This document shows positions 42,299 through 48,550 of a stretch of 64,000 nucleotides of DNA, piece by piece. Each line of letters starts with the position of its first letter. Position 1 is the stretch's first letter. A model generated the notes under the pieces. The model was given only the letters and a program-made list of their open reading frames with translations, did no database searches and was not told where the DNA came from. Source of the stretch: Spirochaetes bacterium GWE1_32_154 (GTDB lineage: Bacteria > Spirochaetota > GWE2-31-10); contig MIAY01000001.1 in the NCBI GenBank assembly GCA_001829315.1, forward strand, positions 510,927-574,926, written 5' to 3'. Both the position numbers and the translations under genes were made by a program.

Positions 42299-42664
42299 TT
42301 ATTCTTCTTCATCAAAATCATCAATTTCATCATCATCATCGTCGTCAAAATCATCATCATCGAAATCATCATCGTCATCGAAATCGTCATCAAAATCATC
42401 TTCATCATCATCAAAATCATCGTCGAAATCGTCGTCATCAAAATCATCATCGTCGAAATCGTCGTCATCAAAATCGTCGTCATCAAAATCATCATCGTCG
42501 AAATCGTCGTCATCAAAATCATCATCTTCTAAATCATCATCATCTTCCAAGTCATCATCATCTTCAAAATCGTCACTAACATCTTCCTCTTCTTCATCAT
42601 CATCATAAGATGCTAATAATCCGCCTTGAATTATCTCGATATCTGTTTCATTATAATAAACCAT
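42299..42664 (-). CDS. Poly-aspartate (FDDDD-repeat) acidic protein
   Basis: A 121-aa product: a normal start (MVYYNETDIEIIQGGLLASY) then about 95 residues made almost only of Asp with periodic Phe and Leu (DDDFDDDDFDDDD pattern), ending DDFDEEE. The DNA is a run of imperfect 15-base units (GAC/GAT codons with TTC/TTT). GGGAGGA lies 6 bases before ATG 42664, a full promoter is upstream and a terminator follows, so it is a real gene. The plus-strand frame over it is its shadow. Function unknown; metal or cation binding is plausible. Confidence 0.8.
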   Translation of the reverse strand: MVYYNETDIEIIQGGLLASYDDDEEEEDVSDDFEDDDDLEDDDDLEDDDFDDDDFDDDDFDDDDFDDDDFDDDDFDDDDFDDDFDDDEDDFDDDFDDDDDFDDDDFDDDDDDEIDDFDEEE

Positions 42665-42702
42665 AAACAATCCTCCCTACTATATTAACTAATCATAAAA
42701 TG

Positions 42703-42786: not shown

Positions 42787-43449
42787 TTAAATATTATCAA
42801 TATTAATTTGATCAATATCTAATAAAAATGAAACAATATTTTTATCAATATTTAAAAGTGGAATATTGTAATCTTCAGATAAAACCTGAGGAAGAGGCCA
42901 GCATTCATTCTGCATTGCACTCCATATTACAATAAATTTTACACCTGTACTAATGAAATCTAATAATTTAAAAGAGGACTTTCTATCAGTAATAGATTTA
43001 AGTATATTAATAAAAGAGTCAATATTACCATGATACATTAATTTTTCATTTACCTTTTGATTACCTGTTAATAATTTAGTAATTTTATTTCTGATATCTT
43101 TTTTTCTAAAGAAATGATTATAATTTTTATTTGGTATTAGATTGGTAAAATCAGGTTCAATAAAAACTGTTCCTTCTATTTTATCATTGTATTGTTTTAT
43201 TATTAAGCCGGCAATTTGAGAAAAGATACTAAATGAAATTAAAATTACTTTACCACTTGTTGTATTGATAATAGTTAGTATTTTATTTAATAATTCATTA
43301 TAATTCTCAAAATCATTTAAATCAATATAATGATATACTGAAACTTTTTGTTTAAAAGAAAGTTTCTCAACAAAATCTTTTTGGAATTTACTGCTAAAAG
43401 GGTAAAACGGAAAAACTATGACAGCGCATTGATTTGTATTAATGTCCAT
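42787..43449 (-). CDS. Alpha/beta-hydrolase-like protein, eroded active site
   Basis: The 220-aa product has the alternating strand-helix pattern of alpha/beta hydrolases. The place of the nucleophile elbow reads LISFSIFSQIAG (no GxSxG) and no clear catalytic His follows VIWSAMQNECWP. It may be an inactive or altered thioesterase-like partner of the upstream acyl-ligase. It is the last gene of the acp-KS-CLF-ligase run; its start and the ligase stop share base 43449. Confidence 0.5.
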   Translation of the reverse strand: MDINTNQCAVIVFPFYPFSSKFQKDFVEKLSFKQKVSVYHYIDLNDFENYNELLNKILTIINTTSGKVILISFSIFSQIAGLIIKQYNDKIEGTVFIEPDFTNLIPNKNYNHFFRKKDIRNKITKLLTGNQKVNEKLMYHGNIDSFINILKSITDRKSSFKLLDFISTGVKFIVIWSAMQNECWPLPQVLSEDYNIPLLNIDKNIVSFLLDIDQINIDNI

Positions 43450-44810
43450 TATAATCCTTTGATTAATTCGTCAATTTTTTGCTTGTTGATTTTACCCATT
43501 TCATTTCGTGGAATTGAATTGAAAATTATATATCGCGGTACTGCATAACCGGGTAGAAATGCCCTTAAGTCTTCAATTAGTTTTCGAGGATCTTCAAAAA
43601 CATTTCCCTCAGATATAATATAGATCTTATCATCTTTTAGTCCTGCGAAAACCTGATCTTCAAGTATGTTGATAGAATAGGTGTTTTTAATATAATCGCG
43701 AAATCTTGATAATACAAAACCAAGATCAACTCGTTTTCCATGTATTTTTACAAATTTTGTATTTCTACCAAGTAAAACAAAATTGTTATCAGTATTAAAA
43801 TTGACAACATCACCTGTATTGAAGCCCATTTCTTTGTCATAATCAACAGATATAGCTGGTGAATCAATTATAAGTTCAACCTCATTGTTAAGTGAATGTC
43901 CATGAATTTTTACATAACTAAAAAGCTGCCATTGAATAGTTTCGGCTGAAACTCTATAAGCAATTCCTCCTGTTTCTGTTGAGCCATATACTTCAGTGAT
44001 TGAAACAGATTTATTGTAGAAGCTGTCAGAAATATCTAATGGTAATGGTGCTGATGAACTGAATAATTTTTTAGCCTTTTTAAAAAAATGCTGTAAATGT
44101 AACTCTTCAAGCATTTTATAATATGATGGAATTGAAACGAAAAAATCAACTTTTTTTTCTTTAACATATTCTGCTACTGATTCAGGTGTAAAATGATAGG
44201 TTAAATCAATAACTGAAGACGAATACAGTGGTAACATTAGGCCAAATAAAAAGCCGTATATGTGATACAGTGGTGGTGTAATATAGAAAAGGTCTTTTTT
44301 TAATGGTTTAAATAATCTATAAAGTTCCATAACTTCTGTTATTATATTACTTGCGTTTTTACCGATTAGTTTTGATTTACCGGTTGAACCTGAAGTATAC
44401 AACAATATATCGTATCTATTTTCAAAGTTTCTCAAGTTGTTTTTGTTGAAATTATCACCGGTTATTATTTCAAATTTGTTATTAATCATTAAAGCTTCAG
44501 GATGCTTTTTATTATCAGTAATATAAATTATTTCAGATTCAAAAAAAACATCGGGTTTTATTTCAATTGGTATAAGAATAACTGATGCATCAAGTTTTTT
44601 TAAAGTTAATAAAAGGATAATAAAAAGAAGTCTATCCTGAATATCTATATATACTCTTTTTAATGAAAAATCGGGTATAATTAACTGTAAGGTTGATTCA
44701 AGTTCATCAATAATGGGATCTATATCTTTTTTTTTTAATGAAATAGAATCCTGGAGTAATTCAAAACTTTGTGGATCTGCTCTATCATAAATACTATACA
44801 ATCGATTCAT
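43449..44810 (-). CDS. AMP-dependent acyl ligase (ANL family)
   Basis: The 453-aa product activates a carboxylic acid as an acyl-adenylate. It has the P-loop LLYTSGSTGKSKLIGKNA, the adenylate motif VYGSTETGGIAYR, FNTGDVVNF and LLGRNTKFVKIHG, and the C-terminal lysine motif (MGKINKQKI). It is short for an acyl-CoA synthetase (500 or more), lacking part of the N-terminus, as in ligases of aryl-polyene-like clusters. Likely loads an acyl or aryl starter onto the ACP encoded two genes upstream. Confidence 0.8.
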   Translation of the reverse strand: MNRLYSIYDRADPQSFELLQDSISLKKKDIDPIIDELESTLQLIIPDFSLKRVYIDIQDRLLFIILLLTLKKLDASVILIPIEIKPDVFFESEIIYITDNKKHPEALMINNKFEIITGDNFNKNNLRNFENRYDILLYTSGSTGKSKLIGKNASNIITEVMELYRLFKPLKKDLFYITPPLYHIYGFLFGLMLPLYSSSVIDLTYHFTPESVAEYVKEKKVDFFVSIPSYYKMLEELHLQHFFKKAKKLFSSSAPLPLDISDSFYNKSVSITEVYGSTETGGIAYRVSAETIQWQLFSYVKIHGHSLNNEVELIIDSPAISVDYDKEMGFNTGDVVNFNTDNNFVLLGRNTKFVKIHGKRVDLGFVLSRFRDYIKNTYSINILEDQVFAGLKDDKIYIISEGNVFEDPRKLIEDLRAFLPGYAVPRYIIFNSIPRNEMGKINKQKIDELIKGL

Positions 44811-45703
44811 TACAACCTCACATTAAATAATGAGTATTTTCGTTTTGAATATTCAACGACAGCAGTTTCTCCTTTACATTGTAATGAAAAGGGAAATGCC
44901 AGTCTGGCAATAATAGCTGTTGGTTGATCGCCTGTAATAGGGTAGTCAGTCAAAATTATTTTACCCGGTAAGTTACTTGTAAAAAAATCAAATTCATGTC
45001 CCGGTACAATAATCGTATTATAATGGAGTAATTCACCGATTAAATCTTTTTTATTTTCATAAGTTGAGTGTAAGTAGTAACCTTTATCAGATGGAGTTAC
45101 TTTATATGATACAAAAAAAGGAGGAAGTTTAAAATCAACGGTTTTATCAAGGTTGTAAAAACTGGAATATTCATCTCCTGCTGCGACAATGAGTGATTCT
45201 TGTAACAGGTTTTTATAATTAATAAATTCGATAAAGGAATATCCGGTTTCTAAGCCGTCTGAAATTGTTGTACAATAGTTATGAATTTTATTTATTATTG
45301 TGAAATAACCAAGTGGTGTGTTATGAACAGAGTTGTGAAAAAGCGTAGGACTAACAAGCTTACTTTCATTTATCATTATATCATTTATGATCTTGTCGGT
45401 TGTCTCAATTTCTGCAAAAGCTGTAAATAGATGTATTTCATCATCTTCAGAAAGGTTTAAAGCACCACCACCTTGCAATGCCTGATATATACCAAGCGAC
45501 AGTTGACTCATTCTGGTTTTAAGTCTTGAGTCTATCCCGTCCATTATGCCGGAGATTTCATTGATAACAGGGTAGTCTTTAGAAAAGTGAGGTTTAAAGA
45601 ATATGTCATTATTGTATAAATTAATTAAATCGCTCTCATTTTTTATATTTGAACCAAAATATCTGATATCAGAAATAAATGATCTTTTTGTATTATTCGA
45701 CAT
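44810..45703 (-). CDS. Ketosynthase-like chain-length-factor protein
   Basis: The 297-aa product resembles the N-terminal ketosynthase-like family seen in aryl-polyene gene clusters: RMSQLSLGIYQAL, LVSPTLFHNSVHNTPLGYFTI (in true enzymes the SVHNA-like turn), ISDGLETGYSF and VAAGDEYSSFY. It has no Cys-His-His triad, so it is likely non-catalytic and pairs with the true ketosynthase to set product length. Located between the ketosynthase and the ligase. Confidence 0.7.
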   Translation of the reverse strand: MSNNTKRSFISDIRYFGSNIKNESDLINLYNNDIFFKPHFSKDYPVINEISGIMDGIDSRLKTRMSQLSLGIYQALQGGGALNLSEDDEIHLFTAFAEIETTDKIINDIMINESKLVSPTLFHNSVHNTPLGYFTIINKIHNYCTTISDGLETGYSFIEFINYKNLLQESLIVAAGDEYSSFYNLDKTVDFKLPPFFVSYKVTPSDKGYYLHSTYENKKDLIGELLHYNTIIVPGHEFDFFTSNLPGKIILTDYPITGDQPTAIIARLAFPFSLQCKGETAVVEYSKRKYSLFNVRL

Positions 45704-45749
45704 ATAGTACTCTTATAAATTAATTTTATGGAACTTACACTGTTTTAAT

Positions 45750-46883
45750 TTAAAACTGGTAATTATTCTTTATTACGATACTAACATTATTTCCGCCAAA
45801 TCCGAAAGAATTTTTTAGAAAATATTTAACTTTTAAATCACATGTTTTCTCAGGAATCATAGGATCCATTGCATCAGTAAAATCGATTCTCTGATAAATT
45901 TTTTCAGTTTCCATCATATCAATACATATTGCAATTTCATCAATTGTGGATGCTCCAAGTGTATGGCCAATGTATGATTTTAATGATGAAACCGGTACTG
46001 ATTTAAAAATCTCTTTCAGTGTCATGATTTCAACCTGATCATTCATAACAGTTCCTGTACCATGTGCACTTACGTATGATATATCGCTTTCTTTTATTCC
46101 AGCTTGTGATAACGCATTGAAAATACATTTTTTCTGGCTTTTACCTTCAGGATCCGGCGAAGAAATATGGTGACCATCAGATGTTGATGATGCGCCAACT
46201 ACTTCAAAATCACTTTTGTTTCGTGCTGTGTTTTCTAATAAGAGGATGCCGGCACCTTCACCAAGAGTAAGGCCATCCCTATGGGTTGTTAAAGGTTTAG
46301 ATTGCGTTGGGCAAACTAATTGTAATGAGTCAAAACCGATCATTGTCGTATGAGAAAGTACATCGATACCAAAAACAATCGCTCTCTCTATTATCCCGGC
46401 TTGAATTAATTTGTATGCTTGTAATATTGCATGACCTGATGAAGAACATGCCGTTGAAAAAGTCATCGCTTTTTCGAATTTGTTGTGATATTTTTTATTT
46501 ATATCGGAAGTTAGTTTGTTAAAAAAGTGATTGTTAAAAAGCTGATAATCAGATTTTCCATTTTTTAATGCTGAATACTCAAGTTCTGTGCCATCAATAC
46601 CACCTGTTGAGGTAGATAAAAAGAGAGGAACTTCTTTGTATTCATTAATTAAATCTATTATTTTATCAAATAAGCAATATGCAATTGCTGTACTTCTTGA
46701 AACAGAACCGTATTCTTCAAAGTCGTTTGGAATGGTATAAAATGGTTTTAAAAAAGAATTACCGCTGCCAGGTAATTTAGGCAACGGGTTTCTTCTATTT
46801 AGAGAATCAATAATTTCGTTTTTTTCGATGCCAAGGGAAGTTGCACTACCATAGCCCGTAATAAATACTCTATTATTTTTCAT
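45750..46883 (-). CDS. Beta-ketoacyl-ACP synthase (FabF-like)
   Basis: Extends an acyl chain on ACP by decarboxylative condensation. The triad is intact: Cys146 (TFSTACSSSGH), His274 (SAHGTGTVMNDQVE) and His307 (LKSYIGHTLGAS). At 377 aa it is shorter than FabF (about 410) and closer to ketosynthases of specialised type II systems. The start overlaps the end of the ACP gene by 11 bases, showing coupling. No FabG or FabZ is in the cluster, so reduction must use others. Confidence 0.88.
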   Translation of the reverse strand: MKNNRVFITGYGSATSLGIEKNEIIDSLNRRNPLPKLPGSGNSFLKPFYTIPNDFEEYGSVSRSTAIAYCLFDKIIDLINEYKEVPLFLSTSTGGIDGTELEYSALKNGKSDYQLFNNHFFNKLTSDINKKYHNKFEKAMTFSTACSSSGHAILQAYKLIQAGIIERAIVFGIDVLSHTTMIGFDSLQLVCPTQSKPLTTHRDGLTLGEGAGILLLENTARNKSDFEVVGASSTSDGHHISSPDPEGKSQKKCIFNALSQAGIKESDISYVSAHGTGTVMNDQVEIMTLKEIFKSVPVSSLKSYIGHTLGASTIDEIAICIDMMETEKIYQRIDFTDAMDPMIPEKTCDLKVKYFLKNSFGFGGNNVSIVIKNNYQF

Positions 46884-47124
46884 TCGTACTCAAAAAATCA
46901 TGGAATATCTTGAATGTATCAAGTTTGTTTTGGTTTAAGTCTTTATCTTTTATTTTAATACCAAATTTCTTTTCAACTTCGACAATAAGCTCTAAAACAT
47001 CTATTGAGTCAAAAAATAAACCATCTTCACCTATAAGTTGTGTGTCATCATTAATTGTTTCAATTCCATCTGTGCTTTTTGTAACATTTAAAATTACCTG
47101 TTTCAATTCATCTTTGTTTATCAA
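46873..47124 (-). CDS. Acyl carrier protein, specialised
   Basis: An 83-aa acidic product with the phosphopantetheine Ser40 in GLFFDSIDVLELIVEVEKKFGI. The usual housekeeping motif is DSLD; here it is DSID preceded by FF, as in carriers of polyene-type clusters. GGAG lies 7 bases before the ATG. It is coupled to the ketosynthase and follows secG by 27 bases. Confidence 0.88.
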   Translation of the reverse strand: MINKDELKQVILNVTKSTDGIETINDDTQLIGEDGLFFDSIDVLELIVEVEKKFGIKIKDKDLNQNKLDTFKIFHDFLSTNEK

Positions 47125-47151: not shown

Positions 47152-47709
47152 TTATTGTGTGATAATTGTTGGTTCTGCTTCCAATGTGAATTGAACGCTA
47201 TTTAATAATTCAACAACTCTAGTTGTTTTTTCAGTTCCGAGTTTTGTTAAGTTATAATGAATTCCATTTTTGTTCAGTTCGTAATAAGTAAGAAATTCTG
47301 TTTTAATTGCTTCCTCTTCTATTTTTGCAAGAACAAGATTGTTAATGTCTGATACTAATATTGTAGTTGGAGCACTTTTTATTGCTTTTACTATTTTCAC
47401 CGTATCAGTTGTTGCTTCTTCTTTACCATATTTGTCAACGAGTAATTCATATTCAGAAATTGTTGATCTTTTTGTTGATTCAGCAGATAAAGACCCGATT
47501 ACAACACTTAATACAAAGAAAATAACGACTAAGACAGTTGTTATTTTTGTAAGCAAAGAACCTGAACTTGCACCAAAAAATGATTGAGACGAACCGCCAA
47601 TCATTCCGATACCACCACCACTTTTATCTTCCTGTAATAAAACAATCATTATTAAAAGAAAAGATACGAAAATCATAACGCCTGTTAAAATATTAATAGC
47701 TACTACCAT
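47152..47709 (-). CDS. secG: SecG translocase subunit with long C-terminal extension
   Basis: Residues 1-75 are SecG: helix 1, then MIVLLQEDKSGGGIG and GGSSQSFFGASSGSLLTKITTVLVV, then helix 2. A further 110 residues with no SecG homology follow (mixed alpha/beta, TISEYELLVDKYGKEE... to the end). Typical SecG is 75-130 aa. It is encoded 19 bases after tpiA, a common arrangement. Confidence 0.88.
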   Translation of the reverse strand: MVVAINILTGVMIFVSFLLIMIVLLQEDKSGGGIGMIGGSSQSFFGASSGSLLTKITTVLVVIFFVLSVVIGSLSAESTKRSTISEYELLVDKYGKEEATTDTVKIVKAIKSAPTTILVSDINNLVLAKIEEEAIKTEFLTYYELNKNGIHYNLTKLGTEKTTRVVELLNSVQFTLEAEPTIITQ

Positions 47710-47728: not shown

Positions 47729-48490
47729 TTATACTTTATTAAATTTTGCAATTCTTGTAAAAGCATCAAGTTTTAGTGAAGCTCCACCAACTAATGCTCC
47801 ATCAATATTTTTTTGTGACATAAGTCCGTCAACACTTGTGTCAGTTACAGAGCCACCATATTGGATTGTAACATTATTTGCTATTGTCTGACCATAAAGA
47901 TCTGAGAGAACTTTTCTGCAATTAGCTTGAGTTTCTTCGGCTATTTCAGGTGTTGCTACCTTTCCTGTACCAATTGCCCAAACCGGTTCGTACGCAATAA
48001 CAACATTTGCCATATCATTTGCAGAAACGTCTTTAAGACCTTCTACAAGTTGTCTTCTGTTAACTTCGTCAGTTTTACCTGCTTCCCGTTCTTCAAGTAA
48101 TTCACCAATACATAAAACCGGTTTCAAACCTTTAGCTAAAGCATATTTAACTTTTTTGTTAATGAGTTGATCGGTTTCTTTGTAAATATGTCTTCTTTCT
48201 GAATGTCCAAGAAGAACATACTCAACACCAATATCAAGAAGCATATCAGCACTGATTTCACCGGTGAAAGCACCTTTTTCATTTTCATTCATGTTTTGAG
48301 CACCAAGTTTAATAATAGAACCTTTTATTGCTTCTTTTACTGCCGGTAGGCACACAAAACTCGGGCATATCATAACTTCAACATCTTTATCTAAATCTTT
48401 TATTGACTTAACCAAATCTTCTGCAAATTTCTTAGCTTCTGACGGAACCAGATTCATTTTCCAGTTACCAGCCATTAAATATTTTCTCAT
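47729..48490 (-). CDS. tpiA: Triosephosphate isomerase
   Basis: Interconverts dihydroxyacetone phosphate and glyceraldehyde-3-phosphate. From ATG 48490 (253 aa) it shows the catalytic Lys in GNWKMN, His in LLGHSERR and Glu in AYEPVWAIGTGK. GGAG lies before the start; the frame opens at 48550 but would cross the promoter. Confidence 0.97.
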   Translation of the reverse strand: MRKYLMAGNWKMNLVPSEAKKFAEDLVKSIKDLDKDVEVMICPSFVCLPAVKEAIKGSIIKLGAQNMNENEKGAFTGEISADMLLDIGVEYVLLGHSERRHIYKETDQLINKKVKYALAKGLKPVLCIGELLEEREAGKTDEVNRRQLVEGLKDVSANDMANVVIAYEPVWAIGTGKVATPEIAEETQANCRKVLSDLYGQTIANNVTIQYGGSVTDTSVDGLMSQKNIDGALVGGASLKLDAFTRIAKFNKV

Positions 48491-48521: not shown

Positions 48522-48550
48522 ATTATACATTTATGATTTTTAATTGTCAA
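48522..48550 (-). promoter_or_regulatory. tpiA promoter
   Basis: On the minus strand perfect TTGACA (48550-48545), 17-base spacer, perfect TATAAT (48527-48522). This probably drives tpiA-secG and the acyl cluster behind it. Confidence 0.8.

Follow-up and report, generated by a model that had tools for sequence, protein, structure and literature searches.

Five intact genes on the minus strand of the window (the 64,000-nucleotide stretch of spirochaete DNA analysed here), spanning positions 47124-42787 directly 3' of tpiA-secG, are best explained as the priming and elongation core of an aryl polyene (APE)-type type II polyketide pathway, a core that sits apart from the pathway's tailoring and export genes and has a fixed place in the tpiA-secG operon. 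We give this reading a probability of roughly two in three. The operon is a variant of the known APE kind and not a new system. Its parts indicate that it should function as APE systems do, and its product is probably an unusual polyene-like lipid.

The five genes encode, from 5' to 3', an 83-residue ACP (46873-47124; PF00550), a 377-residue ketosynthase (KS; 45750-46883; PF00109/PF02801), a 297-residue partner resembling a chain length factor (CLF; 44810-45703), a short, 453-residue AMP-forming acyl:ACP ligase (43449-44810; PF00501) and a 220-residue protein (42787-43449) of predicted alpha/beta-hydrolase fold. The ACP starts at a TTG codon with AGGAG a few bases upstream. As the sequence-only reading of this DNA had described, the genes are tightly coupled: ACP and KS overlap by 11 bases, 46 bases separate KS from CLF, and the CLF/ligase and ligase/fifth-gene junctions overlap by 1 base each. 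They are preceded on the same strand by secG (47152-47709; PF03840) and tpiA (47729-48490; start set at the methionine of MRKYLMAGNWK). A sigma-70-like site (TTGACA-17-TATAAT, 12/12 consensus) lies upstream of tpiA at 48522-48550 (minus strand), and a hairpin of 10 pairs (5 G-C) followed by a T tract at 42290-42267 is the strongest terminator-like site of the minus strand. From these two consensus matches, a single transcript covering tpiA-secG and the five genes is plausible. The hairpin follows a minus-strand ORF (42299-42670) that lies between the operon and exbB and encodes an Asp-rich, low-complexity product with DDDDFDDDDF repeats; similar-sized ORFs occupy the same place in loci L018 and L019.

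The surrounding DNA was read in nine Spirochaetota MAG genomes of the order, the source genome included. The CLF was found in all nine (8/8 besides the source genome), and the gene order tpiA-secG-ACP-KS-CLF-ligase-fifth gene recurred wherever contigs were long enough, with one exception (G007), in which the set is split and secG-ACP-KS faces a fifth gene-ligase-CLF block with other genes between. One genome (G006) carries the set on two contigs; in two others (G004 and G008) the contig stops within or just past the ligase gene. secG is adjacent in all relatives whose contig reaches it, and tpiA, 52-76% identical, lies upstream of secG in 8 loci. Identity to the relatives is 39-58% for KS, CLF and ligase, 45-78% for the ACP and 19-34% for the fifth protein. 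Since the arrangement recurs despite such divergence of KS, CLF and ligase, it is not due to chance, and G007 aside the five genes hold together as a unit wherever contigs allow. With the 44810-45703 product also above the PF13723 cut-off, neither of the two conditions that the sequence-only reading set for its own refutation came about. A search of 345 Spirochaetota genomes found the operon's CLF type restricted to the nine, with a weak, short APE-type CLF match in a further 17. Matches in public records include the Spirochaetes MAGs GWB1_27_13, ADurb.Bin133 and RGIG8597; no relative was found among the viral contigs searched. The operon core was most likely inherited vertically.

HMMs built from the proteins of the order were run against the APE proteins of E. 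coli CFT073 (L031). The ACP HMM scored 39.4 bits with ApeE vs 22.2 bits with ApeF, the KS HMM scored 224 bits with ApeO vs 140 bits with ApeR, and the CLF and ligase HMMs matched ApeC at 2.6e-7 and ApeH at 8e-30, respectively. ACP, KS, CLF and ligase thus each have one specific APE counterpart, preferred over that counterpart's paralogue. The earlier proposal of an APE-type or related type II system is borne out. The fifth-gene HMM had no match among the E. coli CFT073 APE proteins. The ACP carries an invariant DSID motif, and its best NCBIfam model is PRK09184, with a score under the cut-off of that model. The best-fitting NCBIfam model of the KS is PRK09185 (270 bits, under the cut-off of 407). 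The KS is a true ketosynthase, as had been claimed: its Cys-His-His triad is intact, and all 12 sequences compared share Cys146, His274, Lys302 and His307. Its best PDB match is 6qsp_A (ApeO). A KS tree was limited to FAS, ApeR and ApeO types and the KSs of the order. A split with 99/97 support put the order's KSs on the ApeO side, opposite FAS and ApeR types, as a separate deep branch that was not nested within the proteobacterial ApeO clade.

The similarity of the CLF to ApeC is weak. The protein matches PF13723 at 29.9 bits (curated cut-off 25), and its best PDB match by sequence is 6qsp_B (ApeC); 6QSP is the ApeO:ApeC complex (PMC8358021). In an alignment with ApeC, inspected by eye, Ile stands where the catalytic Cys is expected (TTISDG vs TACSSSG), consistent with the triad-less partner proposed earlier. 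The CLF model (pLDDT 86) had only chain length factors among its top ten Foldseek matches, and chain length factors, ApeC included, ranked before any ketosynthase. An hhalign comparison of the CLF with its partner KS gave no match, so the CLF assignment depends on PF13723, 6qsp_B and the fold. Outside the phylum, most CLF relatives belong to APE clusters that also hold KR, glycosyl/acyltransferase and exporter (MMPL) genes. All operon CLFs keep an Arg beside a conserved Met-Ser (RMS), possibly the site at which Arg30/31 of ApeC is thought to contact the ACP. In second KS-CLF pairs of three genomes (L026, L027 and L028 in G004, G008 and G001), the CLF has lost this Arg. These pairs were rejected as a source of missing steps; they come without ACP or ligase, in unrelated neighbourhoods.

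The AMP-ligase named in the sequence-only reading has intact adenylation motifs. It would adenylate a carboxylic-acid starter, perhaps an aryl one, and then load it onto the ACP; a KS-CLF heterodimer would extend the starter iteratively with malonyl units, and every round would also involve a KR and a dehydratase encoded elsewhere, so that conjugated double bonds remain. All nine genomes encode a MIO-family (aromatic-lyase-family) enzyme whose nearest relative is tyrosine aminomutase (source copy at G000:C17:108260-109831, L148); it could supply cinnamate or coumarate as starter. It is not adjacent to the operon, and the same subfamily, 63-67% identical, also occurs in one Spirochaetota genus lacking the CLF, which weakens the idea that the lyase is tied to the operon. 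The same enzymes might instead start from a fatty acid; the product, a core component of the membrane, would then be a specialised lipid (long-chain, hydroxylated or polyene) that lacks an aryl head. Housekeeping linkage and order-wide presence, unlike the accessory APE clusters, would fit such a role, as would the absence of a dedicated aryl source from the operon and the ligase's NCBIfam matches, which are generic acyl-CoA ligases. We nevertheless consider a fatty-acid starter improbable, given that the counterparts of ligase and ACP are ApeH and ApeE, the aryl-loading pair, rather than ApeF, and that the aromatic-lyase-family enzyme is present throughout the order.

The fifth gene had been called hydrolase-like. 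This was right as to fold: the model (pLDDT 83, pTM 0.86) is an alpha/beta-hydrolase, and of 585 Foldseek matches at E<=1e-3 those listed are proteins of this fold, including BioH with ACP, methylketone synthase I and a PKS thioesterase. It did not extend to a conserved catalytic triad. The nucleophile elbow position is Ser74 in the window copy and Gly in 6/6 relatives. Nor is there conservation at the acid and His positions, which were located by inspection of sequence and predicted secondary structure. Other residues are invariant (W176, M179, W184-P-L-x-Q-x-L and Y194). A Pfam search returned no family match; this and the missing triad led us to reject a biotin-type (BioG/BioH) assignment. 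A true thioesterase that releases the product would agree with the fold, with those Foldseek neighbours and with Ser74, but the Gly in every relative and the varying acid and His positions make it quite unlikely. The same substitutions, together with the invariant residues, lead us to read the protein as a putative accessory without hydrolytic activity. Very tentatively, it may act in the proposed APE-type core while bound to ACP or KS, in product release or membrane hand-off.

No dehydratase, KR, acyltransferase or exporter was found in the operon, in line with the sequence-only reading, nor were the ApeD/J/L/M/N membrane-attachment/export genes. The further suggestion that the missing steps are supplied from elsewhere was supported, with a correction as to the dehydratase: a candidate KR, ApeR-like KSs and a HadAB-like pair were located, but FabA/FabZ and ApeI were not. 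FabA/FabZ was not found in the source genome and is absent from 8/9 genomes of the order; ApeI (PF22818) was found in 0/9 genomes by a search whose positive controls score only below the cut-off, and ApeP (PF22817) in 0/9 by a search run without a positive control. FabZ or ApeI is therefore unlikely as the borrowed dehydratase, and the candidates are two hotdog proteins (PF13452 and PF01575; HadAB-like) at a FAS locus (L121) that has its own KS and KR. PF02801 has seven matches in the source genome. Contig C26 (L123) carries an ApeR-like KS, an ApeQ-like KR and a FAD oxidoreductase, 48%, 47% and 30% identical, respectively, to counterparts in a planctomycete APE-like cluster (L062); the trio is retained in G002 and G003, and G006 has a close FAD protein. 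A lone KS (L124), 45% identical to ApeR, occurs in five genomes. The C26 trio and the HadAB-like dehydratases could fill the missing steps, and the source genome also encodes a PPTase as a candidate partner. ApeO-ApeC is reported to produce full-length polyene unaided, with ApeR raising throughput (PMC8358021), so a split arrangement is workable.

That the operon is instead an alternative initiation module of ordinary fatty-acid synthesis would suit its conservation across the order within a housekeeping operon, but we judge this very unlikely. A FabH-type KS III is present in 9/9 genomes, which makes fatty-acid synthesis independent of the operon and rules the operon out as a FabH substitute, and the FAS locus has its own KS, KR and HadAB. 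To our knowledge, fatty-acid initiation does not involve a CLF partner.

Between two congeneric genomes, dN/dS was 0.007-0.080 across the five genes (0.057 for the fifth protein), compared with 0.049 for secG and 0.028 for tpiA, all rough values because synonymous sites are near saturation. These ratios indicate that all five genes, the fifth included, are under purifying selection. That the operon is what decay has left of a once complete APE cluster, as might be read from the absent tailoring and export genes and the triad lost in the fifth protein, is scarcely credible given ORFs that are intact across the order, invariant catalytic residues and dN/dS values similar to that of secG.

Compared with the APE clusters of E. 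coli CFT073 and Xenorhabdus doucetiae type, the operon shares the ApeE-like ACP, ApeO-like KS, ApeC-like CLF and ApeH-like ligase. The ligase is nearly the length of ApeH (453 vs 452 residues), whereas the CLF is longer than ApeC (297 vs 240 residues). Those APE clusters have 18 genes, the operon 5; its vicinity lacks their ApeI/ApeP, ApeQ, ApeD/J, LolA-like protein, RND exporter and second ACP, while the pseudo-hydrolase and the tpiA-secG setting are found here, unlike in APE clusters. The operon is not classed as a full APE member because dedicated dehydratases and, within the operon, a KR and export genes were sought and not found. The planctomycete cluster (JAJDCR010000148) has the same ACP-KS-CLF order and holds the closest ligase found (197 bits). 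Unlike the operon, it forms one uninterrupted cluster that includes glycosyltransferase-like and MMPL genes, and relatives of its ApeR-like KS, KR and FAD oxidoreductase are dispersed in the source genome. Its CLF is full-length (373 residues), and no pseudo-hydrolase was found in it. Of three APE-type loci read in other Spirochaetota, two (L133 and L135; family f11) place a CLF beside an ACP and a ligase, as here, but their CLFs are of ~234 residues, the gene order differs and, in the stretch examined, they do not lie behind tpiA-secG. The ishigamide KS-CLF (Iga11-Iga12) and AntD-AntE share the KS-CLF logic, and their CLFs are top Foldseek matches of the CLF model; they belong to other product families and are far more distant in sequence than 6QSP. 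Among the titles and abstracts returned by a literature search, none dealt with such a spirochaete cluster, and Spirochaetes go unmentioned in a type II PKS catalogue (PMC10132072).

The familiar form of an APE pathway is a self-contained accessory cluster. Here, an APE-type core is universal in the order, where it is linked to tpiA-secG and depleted of tailoring genes. This suggests that the basic biology of these uncultured spirochaetes includes a polyene-type lipid. We put forward only tentatively the further possibility that in this order an APE-type synthase became a constitutive pathway for an envelope lipid, passed on vertically, with a minimal core for priming and elongation inside a housekeeping operon, a HadAB-type dehydratase replacing ApeI/ApeP, a dead alpha/beta-hydrolase as new accessory and a previously undescribed product. 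Four enzymes and one protein of predicted alpha/beta-hydrolase fold make a compact set for reconstitution, and the conserved pseudo-hydrolase is a candidate player in type II polyketide synthesis. Cluster-mining rules that use local gene content may overlook the operon.

Two further loci of the source genome carry PKS genes. On contig C43 (G000:C43, L122:8739-12221), an ACP-KS pair adjoins a chalcone/stilbene-type (type III) PKS, methyltransferases and a FAD monooxygenase; this cluster resembles the alkylresorcinol/quinone type, and a similar locus is present in G004 (L189). On contig C29 (G000:C29, L125:1024-11700), a 3558-residue PKS with an acyl-AMP-ligase-like N-terminal start adjoins a PPTase.
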